From positions 1-23,830 of the IMG/VR virus record IMGVR_UViG_3300010970_000079: 23,830 nucleotides of DNA. One strand, given 5' to 3'. Below the pieces are notes generated by a model. That model did not search any database and was not told where the DNA came from. It saw only the letters and a program-made list of their open reading frames with translations. Position numbers and translations under genes: made by a program. Source of the DNA: a virus. Below are positions 3 to 23,830 of the stretch, in pieces. The first letter of the stretch is position 1, and each line of letters begins with the position of its first letter.

Positions 3-1190
3 CTTGTAAAGATGTCGAAGCCCGTGAGTGGTAAGCGTTTGTTGGACGTTGCTACCATCTCGGCTAACAACGACTCAAAACTTGGTGCTATAATCGCTGA
101 CACGTACAGCAAGGTTTCACACGTCACCGTTGAGAACAGTCGTACTACCAAGACACACACAGAGATTGTTAACGGCATCAAGGTTGACAGAGGCTTCACT
201 AGTAGGTTCTTCGTGAACGACGTAAGAAAGAACGAGTGCGTGCTGAACAACCCTTGGGTTCTTATCACGAACCAGGAGATCACTAACCTAGAGCACATGA
301 TAGCAATTTTGGGACCAATCATCGAGAGGGGTGAGTCTTTGCTGATAGTAGGTCAGATGAACTTACAGACAATACAGACGTTGAACAAGAACGTGTACGA
401 GGGTCGCATCAAGGCTGCTAACATCATCCCTCCGAGCATGGGGTACCGTCAGGACGAGTTGATGACTGACCTTGCGATCGCACTGGGTGGCAAGTACTAC
501 TCCGCAACAACTGGTGACAACGTCGCAAACGTAGACTTTGCTGGACTAGGACGTGCGTCGAAGGTTATTGTCGGGCAGTCTAAGACGATCATCATCCCGT
601 CAGAGGAAGTTAACGAAAACCTTGACACGCATTTTAAAGCCCTCACAGAGAGTTTAGACCTTAAGATTGACCAAGAGGACATCGAGTTCACTAAAGAGCG
701 TCTAGCCAACATCTCTGGAGGTGTGGGCGTAATCTACGTTGGTGCTAACTCTGACATCGAGCAGAAGGAATTGAAAGATAGAACGGACGACGCTGTGCTG
801 GCTGTAAAGGCTGCCATCGAGGAGGGCGTACTTCCTGGAGGCGGCATCGCACTGTTACGGGCTGGGTCAATCATCGAGCTTGGCAAGTCTAAGTCTTATG
901 ACCAGGCGGCAGACATCATGTTGTGGGCAATCGAGGAGCCTTTCAGACGGATACTTAAGAACGCTGGCAAGAACCACATCGAGGTGGGCGTAGAGATTTG
1001 CAACAGCAAGTCAAAGTACTACGGCTACGACGTGAAGAACGACAAGTTCGGGGACATGATGAAGATGGGCGTAATCGACCCGACGAAGGTTACTAGGTCT
1101 GCGCTTAAGAACGCAGTATCTGTAGCCACGACGATACTAAGTACAAACGCAATAATAACAAACATTCGAGACGATGAGGGTTCTAGGTAA
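3..1190 (+). CDS. groEL: Phage GroEL-type chaperonin (Cpn60), 5'-truncated by the window edge
   Basis: This is a chaperonin subunit that would form an ATP-driven folding cage in the host cytoplasm. The visible part aligns by eye with E. coli GroEL from about residue 140 to the end. It shows the TISAN motif, the apical segment (VNGIKVDRGF, like VEGMQFDRGY), the GGVGVIYVGA strand, EEGVLPGGGIALLRAG, and DPTKVTRSALKNAVSVAT near the C-terminus. The aspartate equivalent to the catalytic Asp398 is present (codon 789-791, TDDAV). The reading frame is open to the left edge. The ATG at 12 falls inside conserved sequence, so it is probably not the start, and the equatorial nucleotide-binding N-terminus (GDGTT motif) should lie upstream. 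The GGM-repeat tail of bacterial GroEL is missing; the protein ends NIRDDEGSR. The 3' end overlaps groES by 17 nt. C-ending codons match the neighbouring phage genes, so it is not a recent host copy. Confidence 0.93.
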   Translation, partial: LVKMSKPVSGKRLLDVATISANNDSKLGAIIADTYSKVSHVTVENSRTTKTHTEIVNGIKVDRGFTSRFFVNDVRKNECVLNNPWVLITNQEITNLEHMIAILGPIIERGESLLIVGQMNLQTIQTLNKNVYEGRIKAANIIPPSMGYRQDELMTDLAIALGGKYYSATTGDNVANVDFAGLGRASKVIVGQSKTIIIPSEEVNENLDTHFKALTESLDLKIDQEDIEFTKERLANISGGVGVIYVGANSDIEQKELKDRTDDAVLAVKAAIEEGVLPGGGIALLRAGSIIELGKSKSYDQAADIMLWAIEEPFRRILKNAGKNHIEVGVEICNSKSKYYGYDVKNDKFGDMMKMGVIDPTKVTRSALKNAVSVATTILSTNAIITNIRDDEGSR

Positions 1191-1434
1191 CTACATTATA
1201 ATTGAAGAATCAGTCGTGGACCACAAGGAGTCCATGACTGGTTTGATAACAACAGCAGACAACGCATCCAAGATGCGGTACCACGACGGTGTGGTAATGC
1301 ACATCGGTCCAGAGGTCAAGTATGTCGAAGTTGGACATAAGTTGATGTACGACAAGGCTCAGGGTCATCACATAACAATCGACGACAAGACCTACCGCAT
1401 CATTCGGGAGCAGGATGTTGCCGTCGTTCTTTAG
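1174..1434 (+). CDS. groES: Phage GroES-type co-chaperonin
   Basis: This 86-residue protein has the layout of GroES (about 97 residues), the lid of the GroEL cage. It has an N-terminal strand (MRVLGNYIIIEE), then a charged stretch with a Gly-Leu-Ile tripeptide at about residues 23-25 where GroES carries the mobile-loop GIVL that contacts GroEL. The strand HDGVVMHIG matches RGEVLAVG, VEVGHKLMYD matches VKVGDIVIFND, and the C-terminal REQDVAVVL matches SESDILAIVE. It starts inside the end of groEL (17-nt overlap), so the two are translationally coupled. The order groEL then groES is the reverse of the bacterial operon. The last 35 nt overlap the convergent gene on the other strand. The fold assignment is confident; the partner is presumably the adjacent phage GroEL, which is an inference. 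Confidence 0.88.
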   Translation: MRVLGNYIIIEESVVDHKESMTGLITTADNASKMRYHDGVVMHIGPEVKYVEVGHKLMYDKAQGHHITIDDKTYRIIREQDVAVVL

Positions 1435-1921
1435 TTTCCTTGTTCATTCTTTTTATAGCCATTGCGTACACCTTGTCGGTGTAGCTCCCACTGCTACTCA
1501 TAACTGGGTTGTGGTGGGACAGTGGTATAAGTTCTTCTCCGTTTAGTTTCTTGTAGATGGAGTTTACCATTCTTTTAGCCTTGTAGGTTAGCTCGTAGAG
1601 TCTTATCTCCTTCCACCCTGACCTACGCCACACGTGTATCAGGTCCTTCTCTTTCATTGTCTTGAATCGAGCCTTGTCCCAGTGCATTATGTTACAGAAC
1701 TCTACGAAGGTTGAGTAGTTGAACAGACGCTCTGAGTACAAGAACAGCGCAACGTCTAGCTCTGGTCCCGTTATGTCGTACTGACGCATCGCCCAGTAGC
1801 GGACAACTCTGTAGTACTTCAGGTAGTCGTTGTCTGGTGTGAACCGTTGGTACTTAGGTACTGGCTTCTTTTTTCTCTTTCGCTCTAGCGTGTATATTGA
1901 CTTTCCATTAATTTTAATCAT
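1400..1921 (-). CDS. Probable winged-helix DNA-binding protein
   Basis: This is the only leftward gene in the window, 173 residues when started at the ATG at 1921; an in-frame TTG at 1927 would add two residues but lies inside the promoter. The N-terminus is strongly basic (ERKRKKK at about 13-19). The middle (about 40-105) reads as a run of helices, including ITGPELDVALFLYSERLF, then STFVEFCNIMHWDKARFKTM, then a KDLIHVWRR strand. That pattern fits a MarR-like winged helix: helix, recognition helix, wing. I recall similar proteins in crAss-like phages but cannot name the family. The promoter reads leftward (TACATTTG at 1932-1925) only 3 nt from the ATG and overlaps the rightward tail-fibre promoter, so autoregulation or a switch is plausible. 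The 3' end runs 35 nt into groES. A transcription-factor role is inference. Confidence 0.7.
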   Translation of the reverse strand: MIKINGKSIYTLERKRKKKPVPKYQRFTPDNDYLKYYRVVRYWAMRQYDITGPELDVALFLYSERLFNYSTFVEFCNIMHWDKARFKTMKEKDLIHVWRRSGWKEIRLYELTYKAKRMVNSIYKKLNGEELIPLSHHNPVMSSSGSYTDKVYAMAIKRMNKETKERRQHPAPE

Positions 1922-1924
1922 GCC

Positions 1925-1955
1925 CAAATGTAGTGTTTTTTAACTATCTTTGCAA
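1925..1955 (-). promoter_or_regulatory. Leftward Bacteroidota-type promoter of the winged-helix gene
   Basis: On the minus strand, TTG (1955-1953) is followed by a 20-nt spacer and TACATTTG (1932-1925). This fits the known Bacteroidota consensus TTG-N17-23-TAnnTTTG. The ATG at 1921 is 3 nt downstream, so the transcript should be leaderless or nearly so. The spacer contains the whole -7 element of the rightward promoter. Confidence 0.68.
1945..1952 (+). promoter_or_regulatory. Rightward promoter (TATCTTTG) of the tail-fibre gene
   Basis: A perfect TAnnTTTG element follows a T-tract and AAC, a context shared by several promoters here. The start codon at 1961 is 8 nt downstream. I see no TTG at the -33 position. 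It overlaps the leftward promoter, so polymerase should not occupy both at once. Confidence 0.7.
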
Positions 1956-5676: not shown

Positions 5677-6116
5677 AGTTCATAACATTATTCATACTTA
5701 CGATTATATCCACGTCAATGTTAATAGGTGCGTTGAGTTGTTCTGACGCTCGTAAGGCGCAGCAAGGATATAAGAAGTTCATCAAGTTTGGCGGAAAGGT
5801 TAAGAACGATACGCTAGTTATTACTATAACAGACACAGTAAAGGGTAAGGACGGTAAGGACTCTATCATCTATAGAACGGTTAGCACCATCTGTCCAGAA
5901 CCAGTTTTTCCTCCTACAAGGTACGAGGTTAGGTACAAGTGGAAGACACAACACGACAGCATAGAGGTTGTAAAGACACAGATAAAGTACATATACAAGA
6001 CTAATAAAAAAGAGATCAAGCAAGAGAAGAAGAGGGGTATAGCTTACAACCTTAGGTTCATAGCTATCATTGCGTTCCTTATATTATTAATCGTTTTATT
6101 ATTCAAATGGAAATAG
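5673..6116 (+). CDS. Putative unimolecular spanin (lipoprotein with C-terminal membrane anchor)
   Basis: A 147-residue protein with an N-terminal signal (MKFITLFILTIISTSMLIGA) ending in ALSC, so Cys23 is the likely lipid-modified residue. It then has a periplasmic domain of about 100 residues with DTVKGKDGKDS and charged, beta-prone repeats (YEVRYKWKTQHDSIEVVKTQ), and a C-terminal membrane helix at about 127-145 (LRFIAIIAFLILLIVLLFKW). An outer-membrane lipid anchor joined to an inner-membrane helix is the architecture of u-spanins such as T1 gp11, which fuse the two membranes at the end of lysis. The lipobox is weak by E. coli rules (Ala at -3), though Bacteroidota rules are looser. It sits between holin and endolysin and overlaps both. 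Confidence 0.75.
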   Translation: MKFITLFILTIISTSMLIGALSCSDARKAQQGYKKFIKFGGKVKNDTLVITITDTVKGKDGKDSIIYRTVSTICPEPVFPPTRYEVRYKWKTQHDSIEVVKTQIKYIYKTNKKEIKQEKKRGIAYNLRFIAIIAFLILLIVLLFKWK

Positions 6117-6706
6117 AAAAATACAAGGGAGTCACGATTAATGGGTCACACTTTCCTGACAAGCCAATCTTAAATAACGTTAAGATTTCATTCAACGATG
6201 AGATCTTGAAGGAGTACATTCCAGCGATTGAGAAGATGGACATATCCAAGGGGCTTAAGCTGCTTTTAATCATAATGACGGACCATGAGGGATTCTATAA
6301 GGGGACACGAAGTTATAGAACAAACAACCCTGGGAACATTGGCAACACTGACTCAGGAGCGAACGTTAAGCTGTCATCTCTGACGGTAGGCATCCAAAGA
6401 CAGATCGACTACTTCACTAAGATAATTAGCGGTAGTTCTAGGACATATCCGATGAACAAGGAGGTGAACATCAAGCCATTCTATTCTGCTGAGATTGCAA
6501 AGAACATTAAGACGTACCAGATGTCTCCTTACCTTCCTGGGTATAGGTTCATATTTACTGGACAGCTAGACCAGTTCATAAAGATATACTCGACTGGAGC
6601 AAGGGCAGGTAATAACTACCTGAACGAGATCCTTTCGTTCTTCAAGAATCATGGCATCGTTATAGGAGCAGAGACGACGCTGTACGACATAAACAGAATA
6701 CAGTAG
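6107..6706 (+). CDS. Endolysin, lysozyme-like or transglycosylase-like glycosidase
   Basis: A 199-residue soluble protein with no signal peptide, expected to need the holin to reach the peptidoglycan. The core motif TDHEGF (Glu61) is followed by SYRTNNPGNIGN (69-80), a pair typical of lysozyme-superfamily peptidoglycan hydrolases: the Glu is the likely general acid, and the RTNNPGNI segment shapes the cleft. Next come LTVGIQRQIDYFTKII and a C-terminal helical part with GRLD-like YRFIFTGQLDQFIKIY and GNNYLNEILSFF. It overlaps the spanin gene by 10 nt and closes the cassette. Muramidase and lytic-transglycosylase chemistry cannot be told apart from sequence. The N-terminal 45 residues have no clear match. 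Confidence 0.82.
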   Translation: MEIEKYKGVTINGSHFPDKPILNNVKISFNDEILKEYIPAIEKMDISKGLKLLLIIMTDHEGFYKGTRSYRTNNPGNIGNTDSGANVKLSSLTVGIQRQIDYFTKIISGSSRTYPMNKEVNIKPFYSAEIAKNIKTYQMSPYLPGYRFIFTGQLDQFIKIYSTGARAGNNYLNEILSFFKNHGIVIGAETTLYDINRIQ

Positions 6707-7714: not shown

Positions 7715-8278
7715 ATGACATCACCTAACTACTTCATTATAAAGCCATATAATGGGGTTAGGTATGACAACATCAGAAAGTTTGGTGACGTTGAGTTTAT
7801 TATATCTTCTTCAATTGAGGACCATACGGTAACTAATAGACTAGCCACTGTCATATCTACTCCAGACTGGTACAACGGTCCTATATCTAAAGACGATGTA
7901 GTCGTTGTGCATCACAACACGTTCAGACTTTACTACAACATGAACGGCAACGAGACTAGCGGATGGAGCTACATAAAGGACGACATCTACATACTAGACT
8001 ACGAACAGATATACCTATACAAGAAAGAAGGTGCTGGCTGGATGGCTACGTACCCTTACTGCTTCATTAAGCCACAAAGGAACGACGACTCGACGACTGT
8101 TCTTAACCACTACGTCGAGAAGAACTTGTACGGCACAGTTGAGTTCAAGCCTGAAGAGGTAGACACTGTAGACGTTGGGGACGAGATATCGTTCAAGCCA
8201 GGGTCAGAGTACGAGTTCAAGATAGACGGAGAGAAGCTATACAGAGTAAAAATAAACAACATATGTCTGAAGATTTAA
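7715..8278 (+). CDS. Probable tandem GroES-fold protein near the terminase
   Basis: A 187-residue protein that appears to hold two copies of a GroES-like beta-barrel. Copy 1 (about 5-105) has YFIIKPYNG, then TVTNRLATVISTP, ISKDDVVVVHHNTF, and DIYILDYEQIYLYKK. Copy 2 (about 110-187) has YCFIKPQRND, then NLYGTVEFK, VDVGDEISFKPGSEYEFKI, and GEKLYRVKINNICL. Each matches the GroES strand order RGEVLAVG, VKVGDIVIF, EEVLIMSESDILAI. Similar proteins with HHNxFR and EYEF motifs occur near the terminase in crAss-like and other marine phages. The tandem barrel layout recalls chloroplast Cpn20. I see no convincing mobile loop, so it may instead be a structural protein. It starts 2 nt after the upstream stop and overlaps the next gene by 16 nt. 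Confidence 0.6.
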   Translation: MTSPNYFIIKPYNGVRYDNIRKFGDVEFIISSSIEDHTVTNRLATVISTPDWYNGPISKDDVVVVHHNTFRLYYNMNGNETSGWSYIKDDIYILDYEQIYLYKKEGAGWMATYPYCFIKPQRNDDSTTVLNHYVEKNLYGTVEFKPEEVDTVDVGDEISFKPGSEYEFKIDGEKLYRVKINNICLKI

Positions 8279-8556
8279 AGGACAAAAAGAATAGGGTGCT
8301 AGTCGCTGCTGAAAAGGCTGTCGATGAGTTAATCAAGGTCCTTGAGATGCCTATCCTTACGTCTACCGAGGAAGACTTGACGGCAGACAAGATGAAGAAC
8401 GCTGCGTCGGCTAAGAGGTTAGCCTACGAGGATGCTATATATATGATTGAAAAGATAGAGTCAGAGAGGAACAAGCTAGACGCAGGCATTATACCAGTTG
8501 TGACACTTGGTTCTAATGGATTTGCTGAGGGTAAGATCAAGAAGAATGGAAGATAA
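8263..8556 (+). CDS. Small helical protein before the large terminase; small terminase candidate
   Basis: A 97-residue protein, helical and charged (DKKNRVLVAAEKAVDELIKV; LTADKMKNAASAKRLAYEDA; MIEKIESERNKLD). Its gene directly precedes and overlaps the terminase by 11 nt. The LTADKMKNAA...DA segment resembles short proteins found at this position in crAss-like phages. Small terminase subunits are short, helical and usually encoded just before TerL, so it is the best candidate here. No helix-turn-helix is clear by eye. The start at 8263 overlaps the preceding gene by 16 nt. Confidence 0.62.
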   Translation: MSEDLKDKKNRVLVAAEKAVDELIKVLEMPILTSTEEDLTADKMKNAASAKRLAYEDAIYMIEKIESERNKLDAGIIPVVTLGSNGFAEGKIKKNGR

Positions 8557-10780
8557 GTACGCACTATATAGGATACTGGACGACCACATCTCAGCCCAGA
8601 CTATCAGACAGAAGAACAAGGCTAAGTCATGGAAGTACGGCTACGACAAGGAATACGACGTGGTTGTTATATCTAAGACTGGTGAGATCGGTCAGGTATA
8701 CGAGATAGAGGGATTAATAATCGCCCTTCCTAAGGTATTTGAGAACATAGAGTCGGTAAATAATAAGTGGATACCGTCAGAGTATCCGAAGGAACTACAG
8801 CGCATCAAGACGTTCTTTGACTGGAATAGGTTCGACAACGAGTTTAAGTCTAAGTACGTCGACTATATCGAGGAGGAGTTTGATAGGAGAGACAAGGGTT
8901 ACTGGTTTGTTAACAACGGCAAGCCAACATACATAACTGGGACACACTACATGTACTTGCAGTGGTCCAAGATTGATATTGGTCTACCTGACTTTCGTGA
9001 GGCTAATAGGATATTCTATATACACTGGGCTGCATGTGTAGCTGACAGCAGGTCGTTTGGTCAGTGCTACCTAAAGAACAGACGTTCTGGGTTCTCGTTC
9101 ATGTCGTCGGCAGAAATGTCAGACACTGCAACACTGTCGAGTAACTCAAAGTTGGGTATACAGTCCAAGTCGGGATCCGATGCCAAGACAATGTTTACAG
9201 ACAAGGTCGTACCAATTGTTAACAACTACCCGTTCTTCTTTAAGCCACTTCGAGATGGTATGGACACGCCAAAGACTGAGATATCGTTCAGACTTCCAGC
9301 GTCCAAGATTACTAAGAAGAACATGAACGAGGAGAACACTAGCACCATTGAGGGACTGGATACTATAATTGACTGGAAGAATACGGCAGACAACTCCTAC
9401 GATGGTGAGAAGTTACTGAGACTAATTGAGGATGAGGCTGGTAAGGTCGAGAAGCCTAACAACATACTGAACGGATGGAGGATTAGAAAGACGTGCCTCC
9501 GTCTAGGTAGTAAGATTATTGGTAAGTGCATGATGGGGTCAACCTCTAACGCACTTGCAAAGGGTGGCGAGAACTACAAGAAGATGTTCAACGACTCTAA
9601 CGTCAACATGCGCTCCAAGAACGGTCAGACCAAGAGTGGGCTGTACAGCTTGTTCATTCCTATGGAGTGGAACTTCGAGGGCTACATCGACGAGTTCGGG
9701 TTCCCAGTGTTCGAGGACCCTAAGAAGCCAGTGCTTGGTATTGACGGAGAGATGATCGACATTGGCGTTATTACCTACTGGGAGAATGAGGTGTCAGCAC
9801 TTAAGAACGACCCAGACGCATTGAATGAGTTCTATCGACAGTTTCCTAGGACAACCTCTCATGCGTTCAGGGACGAGTCTAAGCAGTCTTTATTCAACCT
9901 AACGAAGATATACCAGCAGATCGACCATAACGAGTCTCTAATCAAGGATAGGGTACTTACAAGAGGTGGATTCAGTTGGAAGAACGGAGTAGAAGACTCA
10001 GAGGTAATATGGACTCCAGAGAACAACGGACGTTTCTTAGTCTCGTGGATACCACCGACAACACTCAGGAACAAGGTTGTGAAGGACAGACACGGAAACA
10101 GACAGCCTGGAAACAAGCACATCGGTGCGTTTGGTTGTGACCCTTACGACATCTCAGGTGTTGTAGGCGGAGGCGGATCTAACGGTGCACTCCACGGTAA
10201 GACAAAGTTCCACCTAGAGAGTGAGGCTCCAACTGGACAGTTCTTCTTAGAGTATGTAACAAGGACACAGACCGCAGAGATATTTTTTGAGGACGTGCTA
10301 ATGGCTTGCATATTTTACGGCATGCCAATACTTATAGAGAACAACAAGACTAGGCTGCTGTACCACTTCAAGAATAGGGGCTACAGAGCGTTCTCACTTA
10401 ACAGACCAGACAAGCACATATCCAAGCTGTCAAAGACCGAGCTAGAGCTAGGTGGTATTCCTAACTCGTCGGAGGACGTGAAGCAGGCGCACGCATCTGC
10501 TATCGGGTCGTACACAGAGGAGAACGTTGGGTATGACTTAGAGGGGACGTACAGAGATCCTGACGAGATGGGTAACATGTACTTCACCAAGACATTAGAG
10601 GACTGGGCTAGGTTTGATATAAACAATCGTACCAAACATGATGCATCCATTAGTTCTGGTTTAGCTATTATGGCTACACGTGAGTATATCATTAAACAGC
10701 AAACTGAAAATACGAAAATTTTGCTTAATTTTGCAAGGTATGATAACAGCTCATCAAAAAGTCAATTCAAGAGGCAATGA
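8546..10780 (+). CDS. terL: Terminase large subunit (TerL)
   Basis: A 744-residue DNA-packaging motor with an N-terminal ATPase and C-terminal RNase H-like nuclease. The length suits crAss-like TerL. The start is set at the ATG at 8546 (MEDKYALYRILDDH); 13 further upstream codons from an in-frame GTG are possible but lie deep in the previous gene. A divergent Walker A region is LKNRRSGFSFMSSAE (about 176-190), and Walker B with the catalytic Glu is LLRLIEDE (about 290-297). The nuclease shows an acidic motif GAFGCDPYD (Asp at about 532), a second block around FFLEYVTRTQTAEIFFED, and an ENNKTR stretch. Its stop overlaps the portal start (ATGA). The last 170 bases are more AT-rich and contain a possible internal promoter. 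Confidence 0.92.
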   Translation: MEDKYALYRILDDHISAQTIRQKNKAKSWKYGYDKEYDVVVISKTGEIGQVYEIEGLIIALPKVFENIESVNNKWIPSEYPKELQRIKTFFDWNRFDNEFKSKYVDYIEEEFDRRDKGYWFVNNGKPTYITGTHYMYLQWSKIDIGLPDFREANRIFYIHWAACVADSRSFGQCYLKNRRSGFSFMSSAEMSDTATLSSNSKLGIQSKSGSDAKTMFTDKVVPIVNNYPFFFKPLRDGMDTPKTEISFRLPASKITKKNMNEENTSTIEGLDTIIDWKNTADNSYDGEKLLRLIEDEAGKVEKPNNILNGWRIRKTCLRLGSKIIGKCMMGSTSNALAKGGENYKKMFNDSNVNMRSKNGQTKSGLYSLFIPMEWNFEGYIDEFGFPVFEDPKKPVLGIDGEMIDIGVITYWENEVSALKNDPDALNEFYRQFPRTTSHAFRDESKQSLFNLTKIYQQIDHNESLIKDRVLTRGGFSWKNGVEDSEVIWTPENNGRFLVSWIPPTTLRNKVVKDRHGNRQPGNKHIGAFGCDPYDISGVVGGGGSNGALHGKTKFHLESEAPTGQFFLEYVTRTQTAEIFFEDVLMACIFYGMPILIENNKTRLLYHFKNRGYRAFSLNRPDKHISKLSKTELELGGIPNSSEDVKQAHASAIGSYTEENVGYDLEGTYRDPDEMGNMYFTKTLEDWARFDINNRTKHDASISSGLAIMATREYIIKQQTENTKILLNFARYDNSSSKSQFKRQ
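10726..10733 (+). promoter_or_regulatory. Possible internal promoter (TAATTTTG) before the portal gene
   Basis: A TAnnTTTG match lies inside the 3' end of the terminase gene, 43 nt before the portal ATG, in a locally AT-rich stretch. There is no TTG at a suitable distance, so this may be chance. Confidence 0.3.
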
Positions 10781-13212
10781 TTAAACCAACAATAAGTGTA
10801 AAGAACGTACCATTTCCTAACCAGATGGCATCAGACACAGAGAAGTCATCACCAGAGTATGGGATGGCAGTCGCTCGTGCTATTGAGGGTGAGTGGTTTA
10901 AGAAGACGTCAGGAAATTCTTGCAGATACTACGACCAGGCTAATGACTTTCATCAGCTAAGACTTTACGCTAGGGGAGAGCAGTCAATCCAGAAGTATAA
11001 GAACGGGATGGCAGTTGATGGAGACTTATCATACCTAAACCTTGACTGGGCTATCGTGCCTATCGTGCCTAAGTTCGTCGACATCGTTGTCAACGGGATG
11101 CAGGATAGGATGTACGCTATCAAGGCAGAGTCACAAGACATTTCGTCAGCAGAGAAGAAGAACCTATTCCAAGAGACTGTAGAAAAAGACATGGTCGCTA
11201 AGGACTTCCTTAAGCAGTCCAAGGAGCAGTTCGGTGTTGACGCATTCAACGTTCCAGAGGAAGAACTTCCAGCTGACAACGAGGAGCTATCGATTTACAT
11301 GCAGTTGAAGTTCAAACCTAGTGTTGAAATTGCTGAAGAGGTTGCTATCAATACTTTGTTTGAAGTCAACGAGTATGAAGACTCGATAAAGCCAAGAATA
11401 AATTACGACATTACTACCATAGGAATCGGTGCTGCAAAGCACTCGTTCTTGCCAGGTGCTGGCGTTCAACTAGACTACGTTGATCCAGCTAACCTAGTGT
11501 ACAGCTACACAGAAAAGAATGACTTCTCAGACATCTACTATGTAGGAGAGGTTAAACAGATACACTACACAGAGCTAAAAAAGATTAACCCAAGCATCAC
11601 AGACGAAGACTTGCAAGAGATTAAGAAGTGGGGTAACGCTTGGTACAACGACTACACTATCATTGGTCAGCTACAAGACGACCCGTTCAACTCAGAGATG
11701 ATCTCGGTCCTATACTTCAACTACAAGACAGACAAGAAGTTTGTGTGGAAGAAGAAGTTCTTAGACAACGGTGGAGAGAGGGTAATAAAGAGAGACGACT
11801 CGTTCAATCCTCCAGTTGACGCAGAGGAGAGGTTCGAGAGAGTTGAGGCTACAAAAGACGTGTGGTATGAGGGAGTTTTAGTTCTTGGGTCCAACATGCT
11901 TGTTAGCTGGGACCTATGCAAGAACATGGTACGACCAGAGGCTGCAAGTCAGAAGGCTGTATGTAACTACGTCATCTCAGCACCTAGGATGTACAAGGGA
12001 AGAATCGAGTCTCTAGTAAAGAGAATGATTCCGTTCGCTGATCAGATTCAGTTGACACACCTAAAACTTCAGCAGGTCCTTTCGAGAGTTGTTCCAGACG
12101 GTGTATTTATTGATGTCGACGGTGTCAGCGAGGTTGACCTTGGTACTGGAGCAGCGTACACGCCACAAGACGCACTGAACCTATTCTTTCAGACTGGTTC
12201 GGTTGTAGGACGTAGCTACACTGGAGACGGTGAGTTTAATCAGGCACGTGTTCCAATCCAACAGCTGAACAGCTCAAGTGGTCAGAACAAGATGCAGGCA
12301 CTAATCGGTGCTTACAACTACCAACTCAATATGATACGTGATGTGACTGGACTCAACGAGGCTAGGGACGCATCGACTCCAAATCCAGACGCACTGGTTG
12401 GGCTTCAGAAGTTGGCAGCGTTAAACAGTAACATCGCAACAAAACATATCCTAGATAGTGGACTATCTATAACTAAGAGACTGGCTACGTGCCTATCACT
12501 TAGAATTGCTGATATATTAGAGTACGCAGACTTCAGAGATGAGTTCGCTATGCAGATCGGTAAGTATAACATCACGATACTTGAGGACATCAAGAACTTG
12601 TACCTACACTCGTTCGGTATCTTCATTGAACTTGAGCCAGACGCTGAAGAGAAAGCTCAACTTGAGGCTAACATTCAGATGTCACTCCAACAACAACAGA
12701 TTGACTTAGAGGACGCAATAGACATCAGGATGGTTAAGAACCTGAAGATGGCTAACGAGATCCTTAAAATCAAGAGAAAGAAGAAGCAGAAGGCTCTAGA
12801 GGACAGACAAGACATGCAGTCTCAGATTCAGATGCAGACTAACATGCAGTCACAGCAAGCTGCCGCAGAGCAGAAGCAACAGACAGCACAGATTGAGGCA
12901 CAGTCTAAGATTGCTATTAAGGAGGCAGAGATGAACTTTGCAATCCAGACCCTAGCAGCAGAGGTTGCTAGTAAGAAGGAGTTGATGCAGTTAGAGTTCG
13001 ACTACAACATGCAGCTTAAGGGCATCGAGACTGAGAACCTAACAAGGAGAGAAGACAAGAAAGAAGAGGCTAAGGACAAGAGGGTTGACATACAAGCTAC
13101 GGCTCAGTCAAAGCTAATTGACCAGCGCAAGAATAACCTTCCTCCAGTGAACTTTGAGAGTAACGAGGACAACCTATCAGACTTTGACTTGTCTTCGTTT
13201 GAACCTAGATAA
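10777..13212 (+). CDS. Portal protein, crAss-like
   Basis: An 811-residue protein expected to form the dodecameric ring at the packaging vertex. Support comes from position directly after TerL (4-nt overlap), length typical of crAss-like portals, an early YYDQANDFHQLRLYARGEQS segment, the DWAIVPIVPKFVDIVVNGM helix, the AYNYQLNMIRDVTGLNEARD segment typical of portal stem regions, and a long C-terminal extension. Residues about 640-770 are Gln-, Lys- and Met-rich coiled coil (MQSQIQMQTNMQSQQAAAEQ), and the end is acidic (SNEDNLSDFDLSSF). In crAss-like portals the C-terminal extension projects into the capsid. A 9-bp tandem repeat at about 11050-11070 encodes IVPIVP. Confidence 0.9.
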   Translation: MIKPTISVKNVPFPNQMASDTEKSSPEYGMAVARAIEGEWFKKTSGNSCRYYDQANDFHQLRLYARGEQSIQKYKNGMAVDGDLSYLNLDWAIVPIVPKFVDIVVNGMQDRMYAIKAESQDISSAEKKNLFQETVEKDMVAKDFLKQSKEQFGVDAFNVPEEELPADNEELSIYMQLKFKPSVEIAEEVAINTLFEVNEYEDSIKPRINYDITTIGIGAAKHSFLPGAGVQLDYVDPANLVYSYTEKNDFSDIYYVGEVKQIHYTELKKINPSITDEDLQEIKKWGNAWYNDYTIIGQLQDDPFNSEMISVLYFNYKTDKKFVWKKKFLDNGGERVIKRDDSFNPPVDAEERFERVEATKDVWYEGVLVLGSNMLVSWDLCKNMVRPEAASQKAVCNYVISAPRMYKGRIESLVKRMIPFADQIQLTHLKLQQVLSRVVPDGVFIDVDGVSEVDLGTGAAYTPQDALNLFFQTGSVVGRSYTGDGEFNQARVPIQQLNSSSGQNKMQALIGAYNYQLNMIRDVTGLNEARDASTPNPDALVGLQKLAALNSNIATKHILDSGLSITKRLATCLSLRIADILEYADFRDEFAMQIGKYNITILEDIKNLYLHSFGIFIELEPDAEEKAQLEANIQMSLQQQQIDLEDAIDIRMVKNLKMANEILKIKRKKKQKALEDRQDMQSQIQMQTNMQSQQAAAEQKQQTAQIEAQSKIAIKEAEMNFAIQTLAAEVASKKELMQLEFDYNMQLKGIETENLTRREDKKEEAKDKRVDIQATAQSKLIDQRKNNLPPVNFESNEDNLSDFDLSSFEPR

Positions 13213-14334: not shown

Positions 14335-15774
14335 ATGGCAGGATCAATTAATGTATCTCCAGGAGTAGAGTTAACTCCTAGTTCAGTGCAACAAGCACTA
14401 CAAACAAATTATATTACAGACTTCGATTTCTTAACACAGTATCTTCCAGAAACTGACAAGAACGAGTTCGAAGGATACGGAAACCGTACAATCACTGGAT
14501 TCTTACGTAACGTAGGTACAGCAGAGATTCCTTTTGCATCAGACTTAATTAAATGGTCAGAGCAAGGACGTTTGCATACTAAGTATACTGGAGTTAATTC
14601 AAATGATGCTCTTGGTTCAGATACAGCACAATTTACAATTGCATCTGGAGTATGTAACTTTAGAAAAAATCAAGTTGTATTTTTATCTTCTGAAACAACA
14701 TCTGCATCTGCAAAAGCAGTAGTATCTAAAGTTGGTGCAGCAGATTTATTAGCTGTTGATACATTCGAAGTTAAATTTTACACAGCAGCTGGTTCTCCAT
14801 TTGTTGAAGATACTGAAGATGTAACTGCATTCGTTTATGGTTCTGAATTTGCAAAAGGAACTGACGGAATGAGAGGTTCATTAACACCAGAGCCAAAAAT
14901 CTTTGATGTTAAACCAGTTATTATTAAAGACCGTTATGAGATCTCAGGATCTGATATGTCTCAAATTGGTTGGATTGAAGCTACATCTGAAAACGGTGCT
15001 AACGGATTCTTGTGGTACATTAAAGCTGAAGCTGAAACACGTCTACGTTTTGATGACCAGTTAGAGATGATGTCTGTTGAGCATACTAACGCTGAAGCAA
15101 CTTCTGCTGCATTGGCTTACTTATCTCCATCAACGTCTGCTGCTCCTGGTGAAGCTGCTGCTAGTACAGCTGCTGGATCTCAAGGTTTATTTGCTGCAAT
15201 TGAGGAGAGAGGAAACGTATGGGCTGGAGGTAATCCAACTACACTAGGTGACTTCGATACAATTGTTGAGCGTCTTGATGGTCAAGGTTCTATCGCTGAG
15301 AACACATTATTTGTTAATCGTGCATTCTCTTTAGATGTTGATGACATGTTAGGTGCTCAATCTACAGCTACTGGAACATCTTACGGTATGTTTGATAACG
15401 ACAAGGACATGGCTTTGAACTTAGGATTCACTGGATTCCGTCGTGGATCTTATGACTTCTATAAGTCTGACTGGAAGTACTTGAATGACGTAACTCTTCG
15501 TGGAGGTTTAGTTGGTGGAGCAGTTAATGGAGTTTTAGTTCCAGCTGGAACAACTACAGTATACGATCAAGTTCTTGGTCAAAATGCTACTCGTCCGTTC
15601 TTACACGTTCGTTACAGAATGGCTAACAAAGAAAATAGAAAGTTGAAGACTTGGGTGACTGGTTCAGCAGGTGGAGCTTCTAATAGTTCTTTTGATGCTA
15701 TGTACATCGACTACTTATCTGAGAGAGCACTTTGTACTCTTGGTGCACAAAACTTCTTCAAGTTTAACGCATAA
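14335..15774 (+). CDS. Major capsid protein, crAss-like HK97 fold
   Basis: A 479-residue protein that would form the icosahedral shell. It carries the segment EFEGYGNRTITGFLRNV followed by KWSEQGRLHTKY (about 44-84), which I recognise from crAss-like major capsid proteins; the length also fits. Further blocks include MRGSLTPEPKIFDVKPVIIK, DRYEISGSDMSQIGWIEA, FVNRAFSLDVDDML, and a C-terminal LSERALCTLGAQNFFKFNA. Codon choice differs from flanking genes, with more T- or A-ending codons (GCT, TCT, GAA, GGA), as expected for the most highly expressed gene. It lies 12 nt after the scaffold candidate and is followed by a terminator. Confidence 0.93.
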   Translation: MAGSINVSPGVELTPSSVQQALQTNYITDFDFLTQYLPETDKNEFEGYGNRTITGFLRNVGTAEIPFASDLIKWSEQGRLHTKYTGVNSNDALGSDTAQFTIASGVCNFRKNQVVFLSSETTSASAKAVVSKVGAADLLAVDTFEVKFYTAAGSPFVEDTEDVTAFVYGSEFAKGTDGMRGSLTPEPKIFDVKPVIIKDRYEISGSDMSQIGWIEATSENGANGFLWYIKAEAETRLRFDDQLEMMSVEHTNAEATSAALAYLSPSTSAAPGEAAASTAAGSQGLFAAIEERGNVWAGGNPTTLGDFDTIVERLDGQGSIAENTLFVNRAFSLDVDDMLGAQSTATGTSYGMFDNDKDMALNLGFTGFRRGSYDFYKSDWKYLNDVTLRGGLVGGAVNGVLVPAGTTTVYDQVLGQNATRPFLHVRYRMANKENRKLKTWVTGSAGGASNSSFDAMYIDYLSERALCTLGAQNFFKFNA

Positions 15775-18617: not shown

Positions 18618-21600
18618 ATGGCAGACATTACAAACGTTTTTGTTGCAGGTAGGATGGACAAGGATCTCGACGAGAGATTAATCCAAGAGGGTGTGTACCG
18701 TAACGCCTTGAATATTGACGTGGACACGGATGAGAATTCCAACATAGGGTCGGCACGTAACTCGTTAGGGAACACACTAATGACTGACCTAGCAAAATTA
18801 TTTAATGTAGAAGAGATATACGCTAAGACCATCGGAGCTGTAACGTACGAGACAGACAACCTAGTGTACTGGATAATTACTGGGGACTTCGACGCTGTTC
18901 TTGAGTACAACGCAATCACTGGTGCTACGACAAGGGTTCTTGCGTGCACAGACGGGACACTTAACTTTAACGAGAACTACATAATCACTGGCATAAACTA
19001 TATAAACGGGTTCCTTTACTGGACAGATGACTTGAATCCACCTAGAAAGATAAACATATCTAGAGCAAAGTCGTATACCATAAATGATCCACTCATTGCA
19101 GACGACATCAGCGTGATAATGGCTCCACCTTTAAACCCTCCTACGCTTAGGTTGTTTAATGACAACACGACGCAAGCTAACAACATGTCTGAGAAGTTTC
19201 TATCGTTCTCTTACAGATACAAGTACATAGACGGTCAGTACAGTGCGATGTCTCCATTATCAGCTATTTCATTTAGTCCGAAAGCTTACGTGTACGACTA
19301 CGCATCTGGGCACAACAAGGCTATGATTAACAAGTTCAACACTGTAGATATAACATTCAATACTGGTGGAAAGAACGTGACTGACGTACAAGTACTTATG
19401 CACGACGAGATGAGTTCTAATATTAGTGTCGTTGAAATATTTAACAAGAAGAAGCTAGGGTTCAGTAACGGGGTACTTCGAACGCTAACATTTAACAACA
19501 ACAAGACATACACGATACTTACATCTGATCAACTTACCAGAACGTTTGATAACGTGCCTCTTCATGCTAAGGCTCAAGACTACGTTGGAAGCAGGCTGAT
19601 GTACGGAAACTACACACAGTTCTACAACGTTGTAGGTGTGAATAACGAGCCAATAAACATCAAGATAAACCTAAAAACTGAATCTGAGGAAGTTAGTTCA
19701 GAGGACCCAAAGAGAACATTTAGATCAGACAGAGACTACGAGGTTGCTATCGAGTACTTAGACAAGTATGGCAGACATACAACTGCACTTACGTCTGCAT
19801 ACTTTAATAATGCTGGATCAAATAACACAGCAAACAATACAATATACATCCCTGCAACACAGTCTGATACAGCTAATAGTCTTATAGCTAGTGTATATAA
19901 TGAGCCACCAGTATGGGCTACTAACTATAGGTTGCTAATAAAGCAGAATAAGAAGGAGTACTATAATATATTCCCAATTCTATACTATATAGACGGTTTT
20001 AATAGACACTTCTTAATAGCTGAATCTGATAGAGATAAGTTTGCGGTTGGTGGGTATGTTATATTTAAGTCAACATCTGGAGGACCTACATACTCTAATA
20101 AACAGTACAAGATACTTCAGTTAAAAAATCAACCTGCTGATTTTTTAGGATATGCTGGTAGTGAGGCAGCTGGTCTTTATTTTACGATAAAGGTAGATTT
20201 CACAACAGAATTAACTAATATCAATCAATTTAATTATTATTCTGTCGGTGTTGGAGGAACAACAGTTTGGGGGAATAATTTAACTGATAGAAATCCTTGT
20301 TTATTATATTATGGAACTTTACCAAGTAATGGATTAATAGCTACATTAGGTACAGTTGATAATCCAATATATTATGGTGCTGGAAATAGCAATGGTATAA
20401 TAGTTGACCCTTCTACAAGTAATGTATTTACACCTACTCCATTACAGTATGATGATGAAAGAATATCTATAGTGATAGATTCTCCTACTACATATACAGC
20501 ATATAAAAATTCAATATCTATTGGTCAACAGTACAACACTAGTCAAGTATTAGCGTCAAATCAACCAATAACATATCTATCAACCGTTAATATAGGAAAT
20601 TATTTTTATGTTCAATTTACACAATCAGCATATACTGTTGGAGATAAATGGGTTTTTAATTGTAGAGCATTTGCAAATCCTTTTCAATTACAAGAAAAAT
20701 CTGCTGTAGCTATAATTCCTGGAGGAGGATCTTGGTCTCCATCAACTCCAGAAGTAGATAGAAAAATATTGCAAAATGCTATTATAAAAATACAAGTAAT
20801 AGAGGACACATTTAATCCTGGAGGATCACAGCAAGGAATGCAACAATTTACACCATCTAATGCTACATATGATAATATTGAGGAGTGGTGGTATGAATCT
20901 GGAGCAAGAGAGGAATTTTCATATATAGATGTTCATCAAAATGATATAAAAGGTAGTTTAGTTAGATTTAGAAGGGGGTCAAATTGGCAAAAAAATAATA
21001 ATGGTGGGCTTTCAGATTTTGAAACAAATCAGATAGAATACGTATCTCTTTTATCTCCAGTTAGAATGTTTATTGCATCTAGCATGCCTAATAACGAAAG
21101 CACAAGTAATTCTGGTTTTGATGCCGACCTATATGATCAACATGGAAACAATCAGAGTAAGTTTCAAGTGTCATTCGAGATTACACAGACCGACACTCCG
21201 ACACTTTGCGAGACAGTTGCGAAGGAGTCTCCACTTGATTTGTACCACGAGACAGCACACACGTACCCAATTATAAAGGGTAAGCACATAGTTAGATGGG
21301 CGTACAAAGACTATACGGCACCTAGTTACGTGGTAATAAATAGTATACAGTACACTAATATTGGTCAACTAATTCCAGGCACACCGATTACATCATCCGA
21401 TATGGAGCACTGGTTCACTGTCGGTGATACAGTTTTCGTGTTATGGAATAATGACGCTAACAACACACTTACTGGGATGTATGAGGTACTACTTATACCT
21501 GACGGATATAACATAGTTATTAACTTACCATTTCCAGGACCAGGGCTAGCAACTCCAGGTAAGGTGTCGTTTAGTGTTACAGATGTAGACCAGACCAACT

Positions 21601-22652
21601 ATATAAATGGATTTGCAAACATCAAGATAAACAACCCTAACACTGTCAACTCAACGTTCAACGGATGGTGCTTCGGTAACGGTCTGGAGTCAGATAGAAT
21701 ATACGATGACTTCAACGCAACTGAGCTACAGTACAGCCCAAGAGTTAACGCTATAGTTGACGAGTACAAGGAGCGTCATAGTTATAATGCGATATGTTAC
21801 AGCGGAATATATGGTCAAAATACTGGCGTTAATAACTTAAATGAGTTTAATTTATCTATCGCAAACTTCAAGTACCTACACAGCGAGTTTGGAACAATTC
21901 AGAAGCTGTACGCTAGAGATACCGACCTTATGGTATTCCAAGAGAACAAGGTGTCTCAGGTTAAGTACGGCAAGAACTTACTGTACGATGCTGTTGGAGG
22001 GAGTCAGGTGGCGTCAATTCCAGAGGTACTTGGAACACAAGTAGCGTACGGAGGAGATTATGGGATTAGTAATAACCCAGAGTCGTTTGCTGAGTGGGGA
22101 GATAACGTGTACTGGACAGACGCAAGACGTGGTGCTGTTCTACTTATGGGGTCGTACGAGACTAGAGGAAACCAGATAGAGCCTATATCATCTATCGGCA
22201 TGACTGGATTCTTTAGGTCTTCAATGAGAAATAGTCCAAACACACAACTTCTAGGAGGATACGATCCGTACACACGAAAGTATGTGCTTGCGGCTAACAA
22301 ACAGAGCGTTCTTAGTTGCTCAGACTTAGACCTGAGTAGATACAGCTTATCTATTCCAAAGGGAGTGTCACTTGCGTTCGTTGATCTATTCACAATCATA
22401 ACTAACTCAACTTGGAATTTAAATTTAGTAGACAACGGGTACGGCACGTCTTGGTTGACACTTCCAGTAACTGATGGATCTGGAACGCAAGACATACTAG
22501 GACTAGTTCAGGTTAACACTAGTGTGACAAGATCAGTAAAGGTGCGTGTAACTTACTGCGACGGACTTACAAAAGACTTTCTATTAACTCAGGCAAGAGG
22601 ACCAAAGGGTACGGTAGTTCTTTTAGTTAAAAATAATGACACAAGACTATGA
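18618..22652 (+). CDS. Tail stabilisation (muzzle) protein with a C-terminal BACON-like domain
   Basis: A 1344-residue virion protein. The opening DITNVFVAGRMDKDLDERLI then GVYRNALNIDV (3-36) is a hallmark of the large stabilisation protein of crAss-like phages, corresponding to the muzzle at the tip of the crAss001 tail and functionally to P22 gp10. Repeated NxxSYRYKYIDGQYSAMSPLS and YEVAIEYLDKYGRHT segments fit its beta-propeller and fibronectin-like parts. A late block (LYARDTDLMVFQENKVSQVK; AEWGDNVYWTDARRGAVLLM; GGYDPYTRKYVLA) is also typical. Residues about 1240-1326 look like a BACON domain (WNLNL, SWLTLP, VQVNTSVTRSVKVRV, LLTQA). The middle third (bases about 19800-21130) is markedly AT-rich compared with both flanks. 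The next gene overlaps its stop by 4 nt. Confidence 0.88.
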   Translation: MADITNVFVAGRMDKDLDERLIQEGVYRNALNIDVDTDENSNIGSARNSLGNTLMTDLAKLFNVEEIYAKTIGAVTYETDNLVYWIITGDFDAVLEYNAITGATTRVLACTDGTLNFNENYIITGINYINGFLYWTDDLNPPRKINISRAKSYTINDPLIADDISVIMAPPLNPPTLRLFNDNTTQANNMSEKFLSFSYRYKYIDGQYSAMSPLSAISFSPKAYVYDYASGHNKAMINKFNTVDITFNTGGKNVTDVQVLMHDEMSSNISVVEIFNKKKLGFSNGVLRTLTFNNNKTYTILTSDQLTRTFDNVPLHAKAQDYVGSRLMYGNYTQFYNVVGVNNEPINIKINLKTESEEVSSEDPKRTFRSDRDYEVAIEYLDKYGRHTTALTSAYFNNAGSNNTANNTIYIPATQSDTANSLIASVYNEPPVWATNYRLLIKQNKKEYYNIFPILYYIDGFNRHFLIAESDRDKFAVGGYVIFKSTSGGPTYSNKQYKILQLKNQPADFLGYAGSEAAGLYFTIKVDFTTELTNINQFNYYSVGVGGTTVWGNNLTDRNPCLLYYGTLPSNGLIATLGTVDNPIYYGAGNSNGIIVDPSTSNVFTPTPLQYDDERISIVIDSPTTYTAYKNSISIGQQYNTSQVLASNQPITYLSTVNIGNYFYVQFTQSAYTVGDKWVFNCRAFANPFQLQEKSAVAIIPGGGSWSPSTPEVDRKILQNAIIKIQVIEDTFNPGGSQQGMQQFTPSNATYDNIEEWWYESGAREEFSYIDVHQNDIKGSLVRFRRGSNWQKNNNGGLSDFETNQIEYVSLLSPVRMFIASSMPNNESTSNSGFDADLYDQHGNNQSKFQVSFEITQTDTPTLCETVAKESPLDLYHETAHTYPIIKGKHIVRWAYKDYTAPSYVVINSIQYTNIGQLIPGTPITSSDMEHWFTVGDTVFVLWNNDANNTLTGMYEVLLIPDGYNIVINLPFPGPGLATPGKVSFSVTDVDQTNYINGFANIKINNPNTVNSTFNGWCFGNGLESDRIYDDFNATELQYSPRVNAIVDEYKERHSYNAICYSGIYGQNTGVNNLNEFNLSIANFKYLHSEFGTIQKLYARDTDLMVFQENKVSQVKYGKNLLYDAVGGSQVASIPEVLGTQVAYGGDYGISNNPESFAEWGDNVYWTDARRGAVLLMGSYETRGNQIEPISSIGMTGFFRSSMRNSPNTQLLGGYDPYTRKYVLAANKQSVLSCSDLDLSRYSLSIPKGVSLAFVDLFTIITNSTWNLNLVDNGYGTSWLTLPVTDGSGTQDILGLVQVNTSVTRSVKVRVTYCDGLTKDFLLTQARGPKGTVVLLVKNNDTRL

Positions 22653-23830
22653 ATACAAACCAAGGATTTAACTACACTGGTAGCAGCAACTACGAGTTTG
22701 CTAACGTTGATATAAGCGACAACGGGTTGTCTTTATTCGACTCACTTACTGGGATAGGCGGTGTAGACTTTATGCCGTACGACGGCTCAACTGTTGATAT
22801 ATTTACTGGGCTAATAAATACAAATCCAGCGACAAAGGATCTACAACCAAACCTAAATAACAAGGCTTACTACTTGGTAACTAATGTGTTGTATAGCAAC
22901 ACAGACAAGGACCTAATAATATCACTAGCAACACCAGTCTCGATGTTATTGTCTGGAGGCAGGTATAAGGGCACGTTTGTGTTCAACAATCCCAACGACT
23001 ACGAGTACTTGTACTTGATATGGGACTACACAGACAGCCTTGATGGTGGAACGGCATCTTACGCTGGGGTGGCGTCTACAAAGTACCTAGACGTGGACTT
23101 TGGGTCGGACATTGGTAACGCAGCTGTTGACTACATCGTGGATACCACTGGAGGTCCAGCTAGGCTAATACTAAAGTATAACAGAAACACGGTTGGTGAC
23201 ACTGGGTATGTAGGTATAAACAGTCTATCGAACTACAACGCACTAAAGGCACTAGACATACCAGATGAGAACATATCTTTGGTGTATCCTTACGACGGAC
23301 TGGTTGACAATGGCACTGGCTCAATAAATTTCAACAAGTTCTTACCAACGGGGTCGGGCAGCCTGACGGTATACTCGCCTCTTGTATTTACTGGATGGGA
23401 CCTCGCTAGGGTTGATCCAACGTTGACATCCTTCTGGATTAATATATCTGCTGGGACTGTATCTAACGTATGTGCCCAAGCACCTACAACTAACTACTAC
23501 CATGACGGTGTAGGAGCTACACCAACGGTTGGTGATAGGATCTATACAGTGTCTGACGGTAGCGCAACATTTGACGGGACCAGTTCGTACCACCTGATAA
23601 GCACTACATTCTCAACTCTTCCACCAGTTTCAGGTGGCAAGTACGTTGTTGTGAATGCTGACGGTCTTTGTATACTGTACGGAGAGTGCGACTGTCCAGA
23701 GGTTGCTATACCAGTAATCGATCAGGCAGACATTAACATAACTCAGAACAGATACGTAAACCTAGCATTCAGTGCTACAAATAACCCTAGCAACTGGACT
23801 GTAATATCTACACACGCCTATCCATACCTA
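22649..23830 (+). CDS. Structural tail protein, 3'-truncated by the window edge
   Basis: An open frame of 394 codons from the ATG at 22649 (MNTNQGFNYTGSSNYEFANV) to the last base, with no stop in the window. The start overlaps the muzzle stop in an ATGA, so it belongs to the same operon. The product is Gly-, Thr- and aromatic-rich and beta-prone, with blocks such as YEYLYLIWDYTDSLDGGTAS, then a Cys pair ECDC, and a segment YYHDGVGATPTVGDRIYTVS followed by ATFDG that occurs in surface proteins of Bacteroidota phages. The last residues (VIDQADINITQNRYVNLAFS) may begin an Ig-like domain. Codon use is C-ending like the muzzle flanks. It is likely a tail or appendage protein; the exact role is unknown. 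Confidence 0.78.
   Translation, partial: MNTNQGFNYTGSSNYEFANVDISDNGLSLFDSLTGIGGVDFMPYDGSTVDIFTGLINTNPATKDLQPNLNNKAYYLVTNVLYSNTDKDLIISLATPVSMLLSGGRYKGTFVFNNPNDYEYLYLIWDYTDSLDGGTASYAGVASTKYLDVDFGSDIGNAAVDYIVDTTGGPARLILKYNRNTVGDTGYVGINSLSNYNALKALDIPDENISLVYPYDGLVDNGTGSINFNKFLPTGSGSLTVYSPLVFTGWDLARVDPTLTSFWINISAGTVSNVCAQAPTTNYYHDGVGATPTVGDRIYTVSDGSATFDGTSSYHLISTTFSTLPPVSGGKYVVVNADGLCILYGECDCPEVAIPVIDQADINITQNRYVNLAFSATNNPSNWTVISTHAYPYL

Follow-up and report, generated by a model that had tools for sequence, protein, structure and literature searches.

The analysed stretch, referred to here as the window, is an entire IMG/VR record of 23,830 bases from an uncultured phage and opens on groEL (3..1190, + strand), a group I chaperonin gene that is truncated at its 5' end by the start of the contig, extends from approximately residue 131 to the C terminus and has Pfam, PHROG and PDB matches. 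It is followed on the same strand by groES (1174..1434), which encodes a co-chaperonin of 86 aa with a short roof segment, so that the end of groEL and the start of groES overlap by 17 nt (1174..1190, + strand). A convergent gene of 175 aa on the opposite strand (1400..1927, phrog_17028) overlaps the 3' end of groES with its own 3' end; many related loci have this neighbour in the same tail-to-tail position, with 98 matching ORFs, and in ctfjg026 it carries a 'repressor protein' annotation. Further along the + strand lie a gene for a tandem Cpn10-like protein of 187 aa with a predicted Cpn20-like fold (7715..8278), the adjoining gene for the terminase large subunit (8507..10780; phrog_6681, E 3e-165), the portal protein gene (10777..13212; phrog_6547, E 1e-141) and a gene for a virion structural protein of 479 aa (14335..15774; phrog_13704, head and packaging, E 4e-109), the product of which is, judging by its position, probably the major capsid protein. 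Between the groEL-groES pair and the terminase gene, a possible endolysin gene (6107-6706) is a guess from position alone, the PHROG search having returned no match. Positions 18618-22652 and 22649-23830 match different parts of phrog_14478, a single family of virion proteins 1474 residues long, as though a long structural protein had been split into two genes in the window.

The groEL frame comprises 395 aa with an open 5' end, since the contig begins within the gene. Its product matches Pfam Cpn60_TCP1 (PF00118; E 9e-31, 107.5 bits against a cut-off of 34.3) and the PHROG family 'chaperonin groEL' (E 4e-84), and aligns with cellular GroEL from about residue 131 through to the C terminus, which places it by sequence in the Cpn60 family as a predicted group I chaperonin. 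The window protein itself possesses D398, the GGG motif and D495, and the N-terminal quarter that carries the D52 and D87 loops lies outside the contig. The first-pass annotation had pointed to this upstream part as the place to look for the nucleotide-binding motif, and both motifs are present, as TKDGVSVAK (D52) and AGDGTTT (D87), in L005, a 97%-identical full-length relative from the IMG/VR scan with a groEL frame of 527 residues. In the alignment, D52, D87, D398 and D495 are invariant across the lineage, and the ATP site (D52, GDGTT with D87, D398, GGG and D495) is intact in close relatives. Between the window and L005, dN/dS is 0.05 for groEL (0.020/0.40) and 0.22 for the non-overlapping part of groES (0.049/0.22), and both genes are thus under purifying selection. 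In a second close relative, G005 (61,147 bases; L011/L012), groEL spans the contig ends; these carry an exact direct repeat of 127 bases, although IMG/VR classes the record as linear, and G005 is therefore probably a closed genome with an intact groEL. The absence of a GGM tail, noted at first pass, is characteristic of the lineage: the window protein ends in ...IRDDEGSR, and the tail is found in 0 of 92 lineage sequences vs 72 of 80 from bacteria.

Window GroES matches Pfam Cpn10 (PF00166) with E 3e-10 and 40.4 bits against a cut-off of 21.1, and its AlphaFold2 model (pLDDT 84) matches solved structures of GroES, with E down to 4e-5, and of T4 gp31 (1g31), and the protein is thus assigned by sequence and by predicted structure to the Cpn10 family and fold. 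The mobile loop (1219..1254, + strand) was located by alignment and corresponds to a low-confidence part of the model, residues 16-26. Within it, the tripeptide Leu-Ile-Thr (1243-1251, + strand) replaces the Ile-Val-Leu of E. coli, and most of the lineage has LIL or LLL. Position 27 is accordingly Thr in the window, and since L27A or L27D in E. coli GroES abolishes binding (PMC5575113), lid binding would either rely on other contacts or be weak. The roof segment (1294..1335, + strand) aligns as 14 residues and is shortened in all lineage lids, 83 of 92 having exactly 14 residues; by comparison, the E. coli roof has 23 residues, and among 80 cellular lids 44 have 18 and three have 14. T4 gp31 is without roof loops and forms an expanded cage (PMC6318259).

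Direct reading of the sequence bears out the overlap described at first pass, with the groES ATG at 1174 and the groEL stop codon ending at 1190, and the order was rightly called reversed relative to bacteria, in which groES comes first in 80 of 81 cellular loci and last in 0 of 81. Among the relatives, 94 rows, including a few contigs seen twice, have groES 3' of groEL in the same orientation. About half of the rows overlap; 25 of the 94 do so by exactly 17 nt, and others have a 4-nt or 1-nt overlap or a gap between the frames; the overlapping nucleotides were inspected for 21 loci, the window included. A chance overlap is ruled out, since dozens of related phages share both the order and the overlap. 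The groEL-then-groES order is a standing arrangement of a deep phage clade that comprises approximately 90 IMG/VR loci, the Flavobacterium elemoviruses and ctfjg026, and it is already present in GenBank for ctfjg026 and the elemoviruses. Phages with groES first are immuto, Calle_1, MaF61 and DAC19, and probably cthkR962, where the upstream gene falls below the Pfam cut-off.

The first-pass view that phages usually carry only one of the two genes does not hold, as both are annotated or detected in the elemoviruses, ctfjg026, Panino, Calle_1, immuto, MaF61 and DAC19, and the paper on Panino itself states that GroEL and GroES are present (PMC11590407). A GroEL relative is present in 218 phage records, the pair is no rarity in Bacteroidota phages, and it is conserved across a large phage lineage that has already been partly sequenced. 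When terminase relatives were picked regardless of groEL, four of the five records of at least 55 kb possessed the gene. In record G019 (55 kb) groEL was not found; that record is without a terminal repeat and may be incomplete. Terminase relatives infect Flavobacterium, Cellulophaga, Maribacter and Tenacibaculum, and the host of the window phage is, by analogy, likely to be flavobacterial or at least a member of the Bacteroidota.

On a phylogenetic tree of 67 GroELs, the window sits in a phage-only clade of 28 rows (the window and 27 others; SH-aLRT 99) that is separate from all bacteria, while the long branches of an elemovirus (L003), L093 and Panino are placed unsurely. Lineage GroELs are at most 43.9% identical to the sampled bacterial GroELs, and together with the phage-only clade this rules out a recent copy of a host operon; a decaying gene is likewise ruled out by frames that are open throughout, by low dN/dS and by the intact ATP motifs of L005. 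The description of the locus as a phage-adapted chaperonin pair therefore stands, and the suggestion that it is a recent host copy or a gene in decay, in favour of which no evidence emerged, is given next to no weight. Elsewhere on the tree, GroELs from the Vibrio phages 2.275.O and phiTY18 (L101 and L109) branch beside E. coli GroEL, and phages have therefore taken chaperonins from hosts more than once. GroELs from two IMG/VR contigs (L280 and L281) group with cellular GroELs of Bacteroidota and have no groES detected nearby, and represent either a separate acquisition from a host or bacterial sequences contaminating the viral set.

Distance matrices of GroEL and GroES are strongly correlated (rho 0.83, n=86, reached in 0 of 999 permutations), and in eight related records in which groEL was undetected groES was missing from all eight as well, although all of these may be fragments. 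Both results fit joint inheritance of the two genes as one unit, with the proviso that adjacency alone also yields correlated distances, and window GroEL, whose cognate groES is adjacent and co-inherited, may depend on a GroES-type lid. The apical groove differs from that of bacteria at specific residues: L234 is replaced by Glu in 80 of 92 sequences, and V263 and V264 are replaced by Ala, Asn or Lys, the window having Asn-Lys at the corresponding helix I codons (384..389, + strand; E. coli numbering, alignment to E. coli GroEL). A re-shaped groove of this kind points to altered clients or an altered lid. As a set, the groove residues are no more variable than other conserved apical positions, and the case for the groove thus rests on these specific substitutions and not on their rate. 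Covariation of lid and groove, proposed at first pass, is visible as an association, a polar residue occupying GroES 27 in 7 of the 10 pairs where GroEL 264 is Lys or otherwise polar but in 0 of the remaining 78 pairs (Fisher 2e-8), and GroEL 264 being polar, in nearly all cases Lys, wherever GroES 27 is polar. Its statistical side does not stand, as the pattern reflects only 3-4 changes on the tree and 2-4 independent pairs and is not significant.

Two stacked heptameric rings are typical of bacterial GroEL, though not of mitochondrial mtHsp60. The conservation of ring-ring contacts was assessed at K105, A109, R452, E461, S463 and V464 against a base of 341 positions that are conserved in bacterial GroEL. 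Identity is kept in the lineage at 98% for ATP-site positions and at 13% for the six ring-contact positions, the latter having a mean entropy of 3.10 bits vs 1.13 for conserved equatorial positions (0 of 20,000 permutations). In a subset of 61 sequences with a median identity of 60%, close to the 66% of bacteria, the corresponding values are 2.93 and 0.96. The contact positions are among the most scattered equatorial sites in the lineage, whereas the ATP site is invariant, and in the window the codons for R452, E461, S463 and V464 (945..983, + strand) encode R, N, I and E. The canonical ring-ring contacts are thus eroded, which suggests that lineage GroELs form single rings, weakly paired rings or rings joined by a different contact. 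Human mtHsp60, which is mainly single-ring, is without two of the same contacts, namely both inter-ring salt bridges (PMC5575113).

The 187-aa protein has a full-length match to phrog_13932, 'co-chaperonin GroES' (E 1.4e-12), and scores 14.6 bits with Pfam Cpn10, which is under the cut-off. Its AlphaFold2 model (pLDDT 82) has Chlamydomonas Cpn20 (7ekq_R) as its best PDB match (160 residues, Z 10.7); GroES structures and gp31 come next, and most of these further matches cover the C-terminal domain only. A C-terminal Cpn10-like domain is well supported by the model, and the N-terminal Cpn10-like domain is predicted from the Cpn20 alignment. To our knowledge, Cpn20-type architecture is otherwise known only from plastids and apicoplasts. 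Profile comparison of the two halves gave no signal of internal duplication, in an alignment of low effective depth, and the family profile yielded only weak GroES matches among PDB sequences (E 0.13); Cpn20 sequences went unmatched at E up to 1. Homologues are present upstream of terL in most loci fetched by terminase, and in all eight of the related records in which groEL was undetected; elemovirus and Cellulophaga phi38:1 records already annotate them as co-chaperonins, and cpn10 is listed as a core protein of 'Pervagoviridae' (PMC8776804). The protein is likely to be a second co-chaperonin-like factor that belongs to the head module and is independent of the phage GroEL. In Flavobacterium phage MaF61 (L106), the gene directly upstream of groEL (2412-2975) encodes another 187-aa phage lid, which contains two Cpn10 stretches and is possibly an independent tandem lid.

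The favoured reading, to which we assign a probability of about 0.75, is that the locus encodes a folding cage dedicated to the phage, together with the lid that belongs to it. It draws on the presence of both proteins, the ATP site of close relatives, purifying selection, joint inheritance, the reversed order, the short roof and the eroded contacts, all of which are read from sequence. GroEL subunits would assemble into a heptameric ring, single or loosely paired with a second, that binds an unfolded phage protein through the re-shaped apical groove and hydrolyses ATP, and a heptamer of the phage GroES would cap this ring via its mobile loop and enclose the client. The overlapping frames probably couple lid and chamber at the level of translation, which would set the ratio of the two proteins, and the short roof may enlarge or open the top of the chamber, as in T4 gp31, letting a protein of capsid size fold. 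The major capsid protein is a plausible client. T4 gp23, at 56 kDa, is already slightly over the size of the GroEL-GroES cage (PMC6318259), and very large tail proteins are therefore unlikely to be encapsulated; proteins 757, 811 and 1344 residues long probably exceed the cage, and the 479-aa capsid-like protein, at roughly 51 kDa, would fit better. GroEL from the related phage phi38:1 has been detected both in infected cells and in samples of free virions (PMC13288928).

The phage GroEL could instead mainly hold a single phage protein, such as an endolysin, and keep it unaggregated without enclosing it under a lid, as the EL chaperonin gp146 does in stopping aggregation of the EL endolysin with no need of a co-chaperonin (PMC7185714), and as the AR9 and OBP chaperonins do likewise (PMC9598537). 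The possible endolysin gene lying between the pair and the terminase gene, guessed by position, would suit this account, but a lid-free holdase needs no groES, and a cognate groES is joined to groEL and co-inherited with it in nearly all relatives, making such a role unlikely. Service to the infected host cell, for example as general stress relief in place of the folding of specific phage proteins, is considered less probable still. Group I chaperonins are general and purifying selection acts on both genes, as that account would have it; however, bacterial hosts normally possess GroEL-GroES of their own, and the groove substitutions at L234 and V263/V264 point to altered clients or an altered lid.

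A further alternative concerns the ring-state part of the favoured reading only: double rings may persist through a different, lineage-variable contact, in which case the eroded residues would be uninformative on ring number. mtHsp60 crystallises as a double-ring football despite having neither inter-ring salt bridge (PMC5575113), and the double rings of EL come apart with ATP (PMC7185714), yet the variation within the lineage (a mean of 3.1 bits over six sites) is hard to fit to one conserved contact at these sites, and we rate persistent double rings at somewhat below an even chance. Returning to the encapsulating cage, its most extended form is put forward as a tentative and rather doubtful proposal: the chaperonin of this widespread lineage would be naturally single-ringed and encapsulating, and would be served by two phage lids, one a ring-matched, roof-reduced GroES and the other a tandem, Cpn20-like lid that belongs to the head module and has host or phage GroEL as its target.

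It has long been asked whether group I chaperonins require two rings. A GroEL engineered to form single rings fails since GroES stays bound, and works only at intermediate lid affinity (PMC5575113). The lineage supplies dozens of natural ring-lid pairs in which ring contacts are eroded and the lid loop varies, making the two-ring question testable, and the 187-aa tandem lid-like protein, if confirmed, would bring Cpn20-type architecture into phages. Neither a lineage-wide inversion with conserved overlap, nor lineage-wide erosion of ring contacts, nor a Cpn20-like partner was found described in the literature searched, the coverage of which excludes the main virioplankton chaperonin survey, which may note part of this.

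Among known systems, the closest are the elemoviruses (NC_055853) and ctfjg026 (MW202828, Caudoviricetes sp.), which share with the window the gene order, the neighbours and the tandem gene next to or near terL, and whose GroELs share 36% and 43% identity, respectively, with the window fragment; these pairs are known from annotated records, and their frames overlap by 1 nt in the elemoviruses and lie 4 nt apart in ctfjg026 by the start chosen, as opposed to the 17-nt overlap of the window. The flavobacterial phages Maribacter phage Panino and Cellulophaga phages phi38:1 and Calle_1 possess related terminases: Panino has GroEL and GroES with a small ORF between them, Calle_1 has groES before groEL with one gene between, and phi38:1 combines GroEL with the tandem gene, there annotated as co-chaperonin GroES. 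E. coli GroEL-GroES shares the ATP site, overall fold and group I signature and is about one third identical, but differs in having groES first, a GGM tail, conserved ring contacts and a longer GroES roof. T4 gp31 resembles window GroES as a phage lid without roof loops (PMC6318259; model match 1g31), but serves the host GroEL, whereas the window phage has its own. Plastid and apicoplast Cpn20, with two Cpn10-like domains per chain, is the best structural match to the 187-aa protein over nearly its full length, a likeness in predicted structure that has no profile-to-sequence counterpart at E up to 1. EL gp146, OBP gp246 and AR9 gp228 are phage-encoded GroEL relatives, those of OBP and AR9 being single rings, and all three work without a co-chaperonin (PMC9598537); they are distant, giant-phage GroELs showing 21-26% identity in the phage search, and the dedicated groES adjacent to groEL in almost all relatives of the window argues against membership in this lid-free group of giant-phage chaperonins.
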